From NCBI RefSeq assembly GCF_001544615.1, contig NZ_FCNV02000003.1:1-64000 (forward strand): a stretch of DNA of 64,000 bases, written 5' to 3'. Positions 29,911 through 32,888 of the stretch are shown here, piece by piece (the stretch's first letter is position 1; each line of letters starts with the position of its first letter). The position numbers were made by a program, and so were the translations under genes. The notes under the pieces were generated by a model, which did no database searches, was not told the origin of the DNA, and was given only the letters and a program-made list of their open reading frames with translations. Source of the DNA: Caballeronia concitans. Its GTDB lineage: Bacteria; Pseudomonadota; Gammaproteobacteria; Burkholderiales; Burkholderiaceae.

Positions 29911-30405
29911 TCAAGTCTCCGAGTGACCGTCCTCGGCGGGCAGCGTCTTGGGCGTGAAGGCTTCGGCGCGGCGGCGGATGCCATCGACTTCGCCGGTCAC
30001 GAAAGTGCGGTTGTCGGCGGCGAGCGCCTGCTGATACGACGCGCCTTCCGGCACGCGATGCAGCAGCGCGCGAAGTTCGCCCTGCGTGGTCTGCTCGACG
30101 GGCTCGTAGTCGTAGAGCGCGAGCTGGAGTTCGGCGCGCTCGTGCAGCAGGAACAGGCACGACGCGAATACCGCGACGCCCAGCACTTCCTGCGCGCCGA
30201 AGCGGAACTCGTGCGGCACCGGCGAGAACGTGAGCCACGCGACTAAAGCCGCGCCGACGAGCGCCAGCGCGATGGTCGCGTTGAGCAGCCAGCCGGCGCG
30301 CGCGATGAGGCGCTCGCGTTCGCTATGCAATTGCCCGGCCGATTTCGGCACGAGCGCGGTCAGGGTGTGTTGCTGGCGAAGAACTTCGAGCGGCAAAGCG
30401 GCCAT
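29911..30405 (-). CDS. Hypothetical two-helix membrane protein
   Basis: I do not recognise this 164-residue protein. The ATG gives MAALPLEVLRQQHTLTALVP. Two membrane segments lie at about residues 38-60 (LLNATIALALVGAALVAWLT) and 72-88 (EVLGVAVFASCLFLL). A hydrophilic tail (EPVEQTTQGELRALLHRVPE onward) ends in a charged DGHSET. Both termini are probably cytoplasmic. The open frame further upstream has no coding character. A strong terminator follows. Function unknown. Confidence 0.6.
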   Translation of the reverse strand: MAALPLEVLRQQHTLTALVPKSAGQLHSERERLIARAGWLLNATIALALVGAALVAWLTFSPVPHEFRFGAQEVLGVAVFASCLFLLHERAELQLALYDYEPVEQTTQGELRALLHRVPEGASYQQALAADNRTFVTGEVDGIRRRAEAFTPKTLPAEDGHSET

Positions 30406-30520
30406 GAATATCGTCTCGACGAATAGGCGCCGGAAGGCGCGACATCGGTTCAACGCATGGCTTACACGATCGTTGACGAGCCTTTCGTTTTGTTGCTTCC
30501 TGTTTCCTCCTGTTGCATTC

Positions 30521-30542
30521 GCCGATGCCGATGCCGATGCCG
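30521..30542. repeat. Short hexanucleotide tandem repeat
   Basis: Three full copies of GCCGAT plus GCCG occur in the spacer between the UdgX-family gene and the membrane-protein gene. It is a simple slippage-type repeat; the number of copies could vary between strains. Confidence 0.8.
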
Positions 30543-30550
30543 GCACGCCG

Positions 30551-32071
30551 TCAGCGCGTGCGATCCTTCACGGGCGTGCGGACCGTGGCGGTGCCGTCGG
30601 CGATCTGCTGCGCGAACACGAGCGCCTCGACGATCGTCCCGAAGACTTCCTCGCGCACTTTTTCGTCGGTCAGGCGCAGCAAGTACGACGGATGATAGGT
30701 CGGCACGACAATGCGCCCCTTATGCTCGATCGTCTTGCCGAGATACTCCGACAGCGCCGTGCGATGCCCCGTCAGCGCCTTCAGCGCCGTCGCCCCGAGC
30801 GCGACGACCACCTTCGGCGCAATGCGCGTCAGCTCTTCGTCGAGCCAGTAGCGGCACGCCTCGCGCTCGCGCTGCGACGGCGTCACGAGCAACCGTTCCT
30901 TGTCGCCGCCGGCTTCCTGCGCCTGCTCGTCCCACTTGAAGTGCTTCACCGCGTTCGTCAGAAAAAGCGATTCGCGCGTCAACTGCGCCTCGCGGATGGC
31001 GTCGTCGAGCAGCTTGCCCGCCGCGCCGACGAACGGCGTGCCCTCGCGGTCTTCGCTGTCGCCCGGCTGCTCGCCGACCAGCATCACGCGCGCGTTGTCC
31101 GGCCCCGTGCCCGGCACCGCCTGCGTGGCGTTGCGCCAGAGCGAGCAGCGCTTGCACGCGTCGAGCGACGGCGGCGCCTTCAGCGACGTGCCCTTGAGCG
31201 GCTCCAGATCCGTATTGAGCGGGACTTCCATGTCGTCCGGCACGTTGCGCGGTTCGCGGTCGCGCCGCGTGTACGGGTCCGCGCGGGCAATCAGCGCGGG
31301 ATCGGCGCGCTCGTTCGGCGGGCTCTTCCAGTAGCGCACCGGCATGTGCGACGCCATTTCGACGGCGTTTTCCAGCGCGGGCGCGAACGTGCTCTCGTAA
31401 TAGGCGAGCCACAGCGCCTCGATGGCGTCGCCGCTGACTGCCTCGCCGCTCATGGAATCGGCGCTCTCGCCGAAGTCCATCGGCTTTTCTTCCGGCTCGC
31501 TCGTGCGGTCCACGCGCAGCAGCGCGCCGTCCCAGAAGGCCGCGCCGTGCGGCGTGGCGATCATCCACGTGGCGCTGCCCATGCGCGTGGCGAAGTGCAT
31601 GGCGGCGTGTTCCAGCAGGTCGTGCACCGGCTCGCACCAGCTGATGAACTCCGGCGGCCCGAGCGACGCGTCCCGATGCCGGAAGCGCAGCGTCTTGCGC
31701 ATCTTGCTTTCCTCTACCTGCACGGCTTCGATCATGCGATTCAGCCGATGCCCGTCCGCGTCTTCCGGCGATGCGACCGCGCGGTCGCCCTGCGTCCAGC
31801 GCCACAGCACCTTGTAGAGAAACGGCCAGCGGTCCCGCGCGCGGTAACACGCGGCCGTTTCGAGCATGGCCAGGAATTCGCGGGCGATCTTCACCGGCTT
31901 GGGCGCGTTCGGGTCCACCGGGCCGCACGGCGGGGCAATGGTGCCGAACACCGTGGCCGATGCAGCCGACTCGCGCCAGAGCACGTCTTCCGGCGCCACG
32001 CCCTCGGTGACGAGTGAGCGCGCGACGGTGCGCCATGCAGCGAACGATGGGTCGAGGATGACGCTTTTCAT
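30551..32071 (-). CDS. UdgX-family protein fused to a DUF4130 domain, KRRIH histidine absent
   Basis: The 506-residue protein joins an N-terminal DUF4130/TIGR03915 domain (about 1-250, with RFRHRDASLGPPEFISWCEP and VRYWKSPPNE) to a UDG-superfamily domain of the UdgX type. In the latter, CKRC (306-309) and C406 are Fe-S ligands, GEQPGDSED (333-341) is motif I and HPSYLLR (460-466) motif II. The TNAVKHFKW segment matches UdgX. The KRRIH loop, whose His forms the covalent bond to the abasic site in UdgX, is here K-E-R-L-L (391-395), so the His position is Leu. The product may therefore excise uracil without self-crosslinking, or may only bind DNA. Confidence 0.88.
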   Translation of the reverse strand: MKSVILDPSFAAWRTVARSLVTEGVAPEDVLWRESAASATVFGTIAPPCGPVDPNAPKPVKIAREFLAMLETAACYRARDRWPFLYKVLWRWTQGDRAVASPEDADGHRLNRMIEAVQVEESKMRKTLRFRHRDASLGPPEFISWCEPVHDLLEHAAMHFATRMGSATWMIATPHGAAFWDGALLRVDRTSEPEEKPMDFGESADSMSGEAVSGDAIEALWLAYYESTFAPALENAVEMASHMPVRYWKSPPNERADPALIARADPYTRRDREPRNVPDDMEVPLNTDLEPLKGTSLKAPPSLDACKRCSLWRNATQAVPGTGPDNARVMLVGEQPGDSEDREGTPFVGAAGKLLDDAIREAQLTRESLFLTNAVKHFKWDEQAQEAGGDKERLLVTPSQREREACRYWLDEELTRIAPKVVVALGATALKALTGHRTALSEYLGKTIEHKGRIVVPTYHPSYLLRLTDEKVREEVFGTIVEALVFAQQIADGTATVRTPVKDRTR

Positions 32072-32188
32072 CGGAAACCGGAACCAGAAAAGGCTGAAAA
32101 GTACTGTATATCCATACAGTATTCTAGCGATGACTCCGGCTTCGCGGCAACTTTTCTGGGATGGTCGTGCCCTTTTGCCGCGACGGTT

Positions 32189-32770
32189 TTATTGCAGATC
32201 GGCTGGCAGATCGACGTCGCGCAGCACGTTGGGATCGTCGACATCGACGGCGAGCGGCTTCACGTTCGCGAAGAGGCCGCGCGCACCGGCGTCGCCGTCG
32301 AGCGAAACGAGCGCCTCGCGATGCGCCATGCCGAATCCCGCCGGATGCCCCCGCGAGCCGCGATAGAACGGCGCGACCAGTGCCGCGCCGCCGTCGAGCG
32401 CACGCGCGACAGCTTCGATCGTCGCGGGCTCGATCCACGGCATGTCGCCGAGCGCGACGATCCAGCCGTCCGCTTCGGATGTCGCGCGAACGGCGGCGGC
32501 GAGCGTCGCGCCCATGCCGCGCTCCGCGTCCACGCTGAAGATGACGCTGCAGCCGGCTTCGTTGAGCACGTCGGCCAGCTTTTCCGCGCCCGGCCGCACG
32601 ACCGCGACGACTTCCGCCGCGACCGCGAGCAGCCGTCGCGCGGACTGAAACACGACCGGCGTGCCGTTGGGCAGCGGGGCGAGCAGCTTATTGCGCAGGC
32701 CGGACGGGTCGAAGCGGGTGCCGAGGCCCGCCGCCAGCAGGATGCCGGTCGCGTTCGACGAATAGGTCAT
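32189..32770 (-). CDS. MocA-like molybdenum cofactor nucleotidyltransferase
   Basis: This nucleotidyltransferase of 193 residues shows GILLAAGLGTRFDPSGLRNK (the G-x-G-x-R and Lys motifs), an Asp metal site in VALGDMPWI, and HPAGFGMAH near residue 150. These match MocA/MobA-type enzymes that attach CMP or GMP to molybdopterin. Located 118 bases downstream of paoC, it is a good candidate to make the MCD cofactor that PaoC-type enzymes use. E. coli instead has paoD (an XdhC-like chaperone) after paoC. The ATG of MTYSSNATG is preferred over an upstream start. It could alternatively handle a different nucleotide sugar. Confidence 0.75.
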   Translation of the reverse strand: MTYSSNATGILLAAGLGTRFDPSGLRNKLLAPLPNGTPVVFQSARRLLAVAAEVVAVVRPGAEKLADVLNEAGCSVIFSVDAERGMGATLAAAVRATSEADGWIVALGDMPWIEPATIEAVARALDGGAALVAPFYRGSRGHPAGFGMAHREALVSLDGDAGARGLFANVKPLAVDVDDPNVLRDVDLPADLQ

Positions 32771-32888
32771 CGCGCTGCTCGAGGGAAGAGGGAGAAGCCG
32801 ATTGTGCAGCGCGTCGAAGACGGCGGCAAGCGCGCAAAAAATCACGCCGCCCGCGCGCATCGCACGGACGGCGCATCGTTGCCCGCGC

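Follow-up and report, generated by a model that had tools for sequence, protein, structure and literature searches.

What does a uracil-DNA glycosylase (UDG) of the UdgX type do once the residue that bonds it to DNA has been replaced? The question is raised by a gene in a 64,000-nucleotide stretch of Caballeronia concitans DNA (NCBI RefSeq assembly GCF_001544615.1, contig NZ_FCNV02000003.1, positions 1 to 64,000), hereafter the window, which encodes a DUF4130 domain fused to a UdgX-like domain. UdgX excises uracil and, unlike other UDGs, then stays bonded to the DNA; its precise physiological role is largely unknown (PMC10359453). An earlier note on this DNA had proposed that leucine replaces the crosslinking histidine of the protein, and had offered a turnover-competent glycosylase, a non-crosslinking binder or a distinct subclass as possibilities. 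We regard the gene as a LexA-controlled UdgX derivative that would form no His adduct and probably removes uracil without becoming trapped on the DNA, a reading to which we assign a probability of about 0.5.

The best solved relative of the window protein is Mycobacterium smegmatis UdgX, MsmUdgX (6iob, E 1.4e-44, phmmer); the 6iob chain is the H109A mutant, and the wild-type loop KRRIH was taken from PMC10359453. Correspondence of KRRI-x-KTPS and KERLLVTPS anchors the alignment and places Leu395 at UdgX position 109, so that the proposed loop KERLL at residues 391-395, with Leu in place of the crosslinking His, is confirmed. An alignment slip is ruled out, as a search across residues 377-436 revealed no His other than H377 and H436 themselves, and the loop has none elsewhere. 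A sequencing error is unlikely because the Leu codon CTC recurs, together with the same four extra loop codons, in a second genome, that of the nearest orthologue (L035, 93% identical), whose loop is also that of the named C. grimmiae (L064). Among the seven nearest sequences aligned, the four extra codons are common to the window gene and L035 only. The five nearest His-bearing relatives have CAC or CAT at position 109, where the window group has CTC, and their R-loop is four residues shorter.

Around this substitution the pocket is preserved. UdgX residues E52, Q53, D56, D59, F65, N91, K94, R107, H178 and R184 are all kept in the window protein, including E334, Q335, N373, H460 and R466 of its pocket; R393 (R107), D341 and D338 (D59/D56) are present, and the R393-D341 clamp is retained. 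Motif B, HPS(S/A)(L/V)(L/V)R, reads HPSYLLR, with Tyr at the S/A place, which is Tyr or Phe in the other compared rows except L091. The UdgX signature residue that is absent is H109, with Leu395 in its stead.

Profile searches bear out both the UdgX-type layout of the UDG domain and the N-terminal DUF4130 domain that the earlier note had recognized. TIGR03914 (UdgX) scores 211.2 bits on residues 299-482, over a cut-off of 189.95, and TIGR03915 (DUF4130 family) scores 142.6 on residues 6-250, over a cut-off of 112.25, while TIGR00758 (family 4 UDG) reaches 120.7, below its cut-off of 125.3. Pfam places DUF4130 (PF13566) at 80-250 and UDG at 320-471. Cysteines C306, C309 and C406 are invariant in 43/43 aligned fusions; in this family such cysteines serve as iron-sulphur ligands. 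In the full AlphaFold model, UdgX structures match first, via the UDG part (Foldseek, 6ajr, E 3.9e-18); the model is poor (mean pLDDT 68.8, pTM 0.43, loop pLDDT ~50).

The window gene is not the only one of its type in the 6.17-Mb Caballeronia genome, which encodes three UdgX-type proteins and a family 4 UDG (motif GEAPG, separate locus L004). The other two UdgX-type genes, a stand-alone UdgX (loop KRRMH) and a DUF4130 fusion (KRRLH) 48% identical to the window gene, both retain His. A profile search of this whole genome found a single TIGR03916 radical-SAM match, which lies on another contig, immediately upstream of the KRRLH fusion. Within this genome, to which the search applies, the window gene thus represents a second fusion lacking a radical-SAM partner. 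The lineage of second DUF4130-UdgX fusions that includes the window gene is referred to here as orphans.

Orphans are full length in 35 of 58 Caballeronia genomes, present as fragments only in 3 and absent from 20. The window reading frame is a real gene, since it is full length in these 35 genomes and its ratio of nonsynonymous to synonymous substitution rates (dN/dS) is ~0.2 over both domains. Close relatives L036 and L038, 91% and 88% identical to the window protein, bear His. Second fusions that group with the orphans also occur in two other genera of the family, at least 3 genomes in g13 and at least 8 in g20, picked among the matches listed of a 298-genome family search. Broken orphan remnants (L090/L123, L088/L122 and L089/L121) were observed in the leaf symbionts Candidatus Paraburkholderia kirkii, Candidatus Burkholderia brachyanthoides and Candidatus Paraburkholderia calva.

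A maximum-likelihood tree of 60 fusions, calculated with loop columns excluded, contains a branch with 100/100 support that splits 46 orphans from 14 canonical fusions (unrooted). The tree comprises 60 of 94 distinct sequences; the 34 excluded, all with His, are stand-alone UdgX, fusions left unlabelled by the regular expression used (at least L005, L007, L116, L117 and L119), the orphan pseudogene piece L089 and the Gemmatimonadaceae UdgX L091. A MobA-like gene lies upstream in 22/23 orphan loci compared and in 0/3 canonical loci. Two of the 23 are pseudogene loci and one genome is represented twice (L084, L109); in the single miss (L067) the locus holds only 1167 bases upstream. Beyond the MobA-like gene, a xanthine-dehydrogenase-like gene is found in Caballeronia and g20 loci. 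Downstream of the orphan, a 211-residue protein that has no Pfam hit at E 0.01 is kept in Caballeronia loci and is unmatched in the g13 and g20 loci compared. The subgroup is marked by its single clade, the LexA box directly upstream and the fixed place behind the MobA-like gene, and, as observed in the window genome only, by the lack of a radical-SAM neighbour. Thus, of the possibilities raised earlier, placement in a distinct subgroup holds.

The loop itself does not define this subgroup. Comparison of the 94 distinct UDG domains shows that position 109 in the 46 orphans of the tree is occupied by His in 38, Gln in 4, Leu in 2 and Pro in 2. All other 48 sequences have His, 47 in KRR[LMI]H and one, an orphan pseudogene piece, in DERLH. 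Among the sequences compared, KERLL was found in the window gene only, its nearest relative having RERPL, and as 38/46 orphans retain His, the idea of KERLL as a clade signature was ruled out. Orphan loops are hypervariable (NERLH, EERAH, GERLH, DERLH, KERLQ, EERVQ, KERLP, DERQQ, RERPL, KERLL). The loss of His in 8/46 orphans needs three changes on the tree, and three are forced by supported branches: one in the window gene and L035/C. grimmiae (Leu), one in the C. glathei group (Gln and Pro) and one in Candidatus B. humilis (Gln), in which motif B is HTSYLLR. In the 35 Caballeronia orphans, E52, N91 and H178 are invariant, and position 106 is Glu in every one. No report of a natural UdgX without His was seen in the open-access literature covered.

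Outside the family, 398 sampled genomes from the phylum yielded 75 UdgX domains over the TIGR03914 cut-off, of which 74 are readable, the 75th (L207) being a truncated match. All 74 have E52, F65, N91, K94, H109, H178 and R184; Q53 and R107 are present in 73/74, and D59 in 72/74. This survey covers over-cut-off domains only, and divergent relatives outside the family could be missed, as the best match in at least one g13 orphan genome falls below that cut-off (E 6.2e-51). The g20 orphans (8/8; L096, L098, L100, L102, L104, L106, L129 and L130) keep His and have an altered pocket, with N91 changed to Tyr (TYAVKHYKW), D59 to Asn and D56 to Glu. The orphan lineage may therefore leave uracil chemistry by different routes in different genera.

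Selection was assessed by pooled pairwise NG86 dN/dS in 35 Caballeronia orphans, 10 canonical fusions and 17 stand-alone UdgX. In the R-loop, which has few codons, dN/dS reaches 0.409 in orphans, against 0.013 for canonical fusions and 0.046 for stand-alone UdgX, values given without a significance test. The UDG domain minus loop gives 0.206, 0.233 and 0.094, respectively. For DUF4130 the ratio is 0.218 in orphans and 0.193 in canonical fusions, and constraint on the two orphan domains is similar (DUF4130 0.218, UDG domain 0.225). Sequence diversity over 12-residue segments of the orphan UDG domain peaks in the loop (0.36 for the segment beginning at residue 388), and the segment beginning at 357 comes close (0.34); loop columns of canonical fusions show zero variation. 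Relaxation confined to the loop was considered and dropped, as the linker (residues 251-300) likewise shows a higher ratio in orphans (0.423) than in canonical fusions (0.196). Constraint has thus been lifted from the crosslinking loop and partly from the linker, but not from the pocket or DUF4130. Short of a formal test, this pattern favours a function independent of the crosslink over simple decay.

The window gene is preceded by a perfect TACTGTAT-N4-ATACAGTA 20-mer, one of four perfect matches in the genome; a reversed-pattern control gives 0. With at most one mismatch, the strict pattern has 7 genomic sites (reversed control none), preceding three imuA genes, uvrA, the radical-SAM gene, the window gene and one short open reading frame (ORF). 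The box of the window gene is the only CTGT-N8-ACAG in the window, where 0.69 loose and 7e-7 strict matches are expected by base composition. A CTGT-N8-ACAG box stands at the gene start in 46/46 distinct orphans, 12-101 nucleotides from the start in the 40 in which the distance was measured, the other 6 being placed from the reading frame. Among loci fetched with flanks, the box is present in 18/18 His-bearing fusions and 0/2 stand-alone UdgX; that it precedes the radical-SAM gene was established for the window genome. The window gene is thus apparently under LexA control, as the conserved box suggests.

SOS control itself is not new in this setting, since it has been described for UDG and COG4277 operons of Bacteroidetes, Alphaproteobacteria and Verrucomicrobia (PMC8565304) and for a splB-type gene in Alpha- and Betaproteobacteria (PMC3323433). 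DUF4130 has been predicted to be an enzyme with a role in mutagenesis, associated with radical-SAM proteins and UDGs (PMC3765255). As side observations from the box search, the three imuA genes are separate and each has its LexA box (G000:C13:224-243, C7:5497-5516 and C10:44626-44645), and a perfect box at G000:C22:69258-69277 precedes the short ORF L213:1118-1480 (minus strand), a candidate SOS gene of 120 residues from GTG that is overlapped by a 190-residue frame.

Combining these features, we propose that DNA damage would lead LexA to release the orphan gene, and that the UDG domain would find uracil in DNA using its usual, retained pocket. A His-sugar bond at Leu395 is very hard to envisage, because this residue occupies the place of the nucleophilic His of UdgX. 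Uracil would then be excised slowly, with water completing the reaction and the enzyme leaving, as suggested by the H109 mutants of MsmUdgX and by the kept excision residues. Conventional UDG activity is gained by mutants H109A/S/G/Q/C/K (PMC10359453). H109A removes uracil without crosslinking, with an approximately ten-fold drop in rate; in the same enzyme, D59 and R107 are needed for folding, and N91A and D59A are inactive, D59A by unfolding (PMC10776899). Loss of the hook would be tolerated or favoured because the genome keeps crosslinking-type copies, the KRRMH stand-alone gene and the KRRLH fusion.

Several observations weigh against turnover as the function. An H109L mutant is not mentioned in the main texts of PMC10359453 and PMC10776899. 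Leucine, with its bulky apolar side chain, could keep out the water needed to complete excision; in the mutants, UDG activity rose and then fell with cavity size (PMC10359453). Most orphans (38/46) keep His, and loss of crosslinking is not the common trait of the lineage. The g20 changes of N91 and D59, with His kept, may mean that the whole lineage leaves uracil chemistry. Relaxation is not unique to the loop, given the looser linker, and outside the loop the orphan UDG domain is less constrained than stand-alone UdgX (0.206 vs 0.094). Finally, PDB entry 6l6s is titled as MsmUdgX H109E crosslinked to DNA, and another residue could take over the role of His.

Pure binding is the main rival. 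The protein would be a non-catalytic binder of uracil-DNA or of lesions, in which Leu fills the water site and excision is lost, so that the site is marked or shielded during the SOS response and DUF4130 is the working part. We consider this possible, although less probable than turnover. The bulk of Leu and the loss of about ten-fold already seen with H109A (PMC10776899) are in line with it, as are the orphan DUF4130, as constrained as the UDG domain, and the g20 orphans with their substituted N91 and D59; a pure binder, however, might not need E52, N91 and H178, which are invariant in Caballeronia. Sequence alone cannot decide between turnover and binding only.

That the gene is a redundant paralogue sliding toward loss, its R-loop decaying under relaxed selection with no new role, seems unlikely to us. 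Such a course would agree with the hypervariable loop and looser linker, with three independent losses of His, and with genomes of the genus that hold only fragments (3/58) or no orphan (20/58). Purifying selection outside the loop and linker is nevertheless about as strong as in canonical fusions, the box is kept in 46/46 orphans, and the same neighbour is kept in three genera. Least probable by far is a crosslinker acting through another loop residue, such as Glu392, Lys391 or Asp390: the 6l6s title (there with single-stranded DNA), the fixed Glu at 106 and the longer window loop speak for it, but Glu392 is just as invariant in orphans that retain His and is three residues away from the place of the nucleophile, mutation of H109 to Lys confers conventional UDG activity (PMC10359453), and the loop is unreliable in the model.

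Returning to the derivative that excises and leaves, a broader scenario joining all orphans can be offered tentatively. A LexA-controlled UdgX paralogue of Burkholderiaceae might have left suicide crosslinking and be diverging, in Caballeronia by repeated His loss with an intact pocket (a return to a turnover glycosylase) and in a sister genus by Asn to Tyr with His kept (a possible change of target base); its products could be SOS-induced glycosylases or lesion receptors with a new substrate, coupled to DUF4130. In any case, the orphans constitute a natural series of close relatives with and without the hook, behind one LexA-type box, and hooked copies are present in the same genome. Comparing hooked and unhooked relatives would test the purpose of crosslinking, and orphans could be natural starting points for designing uracil probes that do not crosslink or that are retargeted.

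Table 1. Positions in the window of the fusion gene, its domains and motifs, and adjacent features.
Feature	Position	Strand	Basis or remark
DUF4130-UdgX-like fusion gene (orphan paralogue), 506 amino acids, ATG start	30551..32071	-	ORF call and orthologues
DUF4130 domain, residues 80-250	31322..31834	-	Pfam PF13566, E 5.1e-24
UdgX-type UDG domain, residues 299-482	30626..31177	-	TIGR03914, 211.2 bits; phmmer to MsmUdgX; Foldseek to 6ajr, E 3.9e-18
CKRC, residues 306-309; C406	31145..31156; 30854..30856	-	Conserved cysteines of the domain
Motif A GEQPG, residues 333-337	31061..31075	-	E334 = E52, Q335 = Q53
Asn373 (= N91), kept	30953..30955	-	Uracil-holding in MsmUdgX
Four extra loop codons EAGG, residues 386-389	30905..30916	-	Codon alignment
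R-loop K391-E-R-L-L395	30887..30901	-	KRRIH in UdgX
Leu395 codon CTC at the crosslinking-His position	30887..30889	-	Codon alignment
His460 (= H178), kept	30692..30694	-	Motif B HPSYLLR, residues 460-466
Perfect LexA-type (SOS) box TACTGTATGGATATACAGTA	32102..32121	-	Box end 30 nucleotides before the ATG of the fusion gene
MobA-like nucleotidyltransferase gene, upstream of the fusion gene	32189..32860	-	Pfam NTP_transf_3, E 1.9e-31
211-residue protein, downstream of the fusion gene	29911..30546	-	

Among known systems, MsmUdgX (6ail/6ajo/6iod; TIGR03914) shares with the window protein the fold, the cysteines, GEQPGD.ED, TNAVKHFK, R107 and HPS..LR, at ~46-47% identity over the domain in Foldseek matches. 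The window protein differs in the changes of H109 to Leu and R106 to Glu, in the longer loop and in the N-terminal DUF4130. R107 and H109 together are the UdgX signature, for which more than 1000 sequences were checked by hand (PMC10359453). Because R107, Q53 and the profile agree with UdgX but H109 does not, the protein is best filed as a putative UdgX-derived paralogue and not as a crosslinking UdgX.

The radical-SAM-linked DUF4130-UdgX fusion (TIGR03915/TIGR03914 beside TIGR03916) has the same two-domain architecture, including a TIGR03915 match, and in the window genome its operon is preceded by a LexA box, as is the window gene. An apparent example is the COG1573-COG4277 SOS operon of PMC8565304. 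Unlike this fusion, the window gene is without a TIGR03916 neighbour, lies behind the MobA-like gene and belongs to a lineage with a relaxed R-loop. Family 4 UDG (UdgA) resembles the window protein in its fold (1ui0, 1l9g) and, probably, in non-crosslinking chemistry; the window protein differs from it by GEQPG instead of GE(A/G)PG and by the presence of the R-loop. The last comparison is with the laboratory H109 mutants of MsmUdgX, which share a non-His residue at 109 in an otherwise intact pocket, and natural Gln members exist in the orphan lineage. Unlike these mutants, the window protein is natural and its loop has been rebuilt (Glu at 106, insertions), and Leu and Pro fall outside the set of published mutants considered here. 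By this analogy, the window protein most likely works like the H109 mutants of UdgX.
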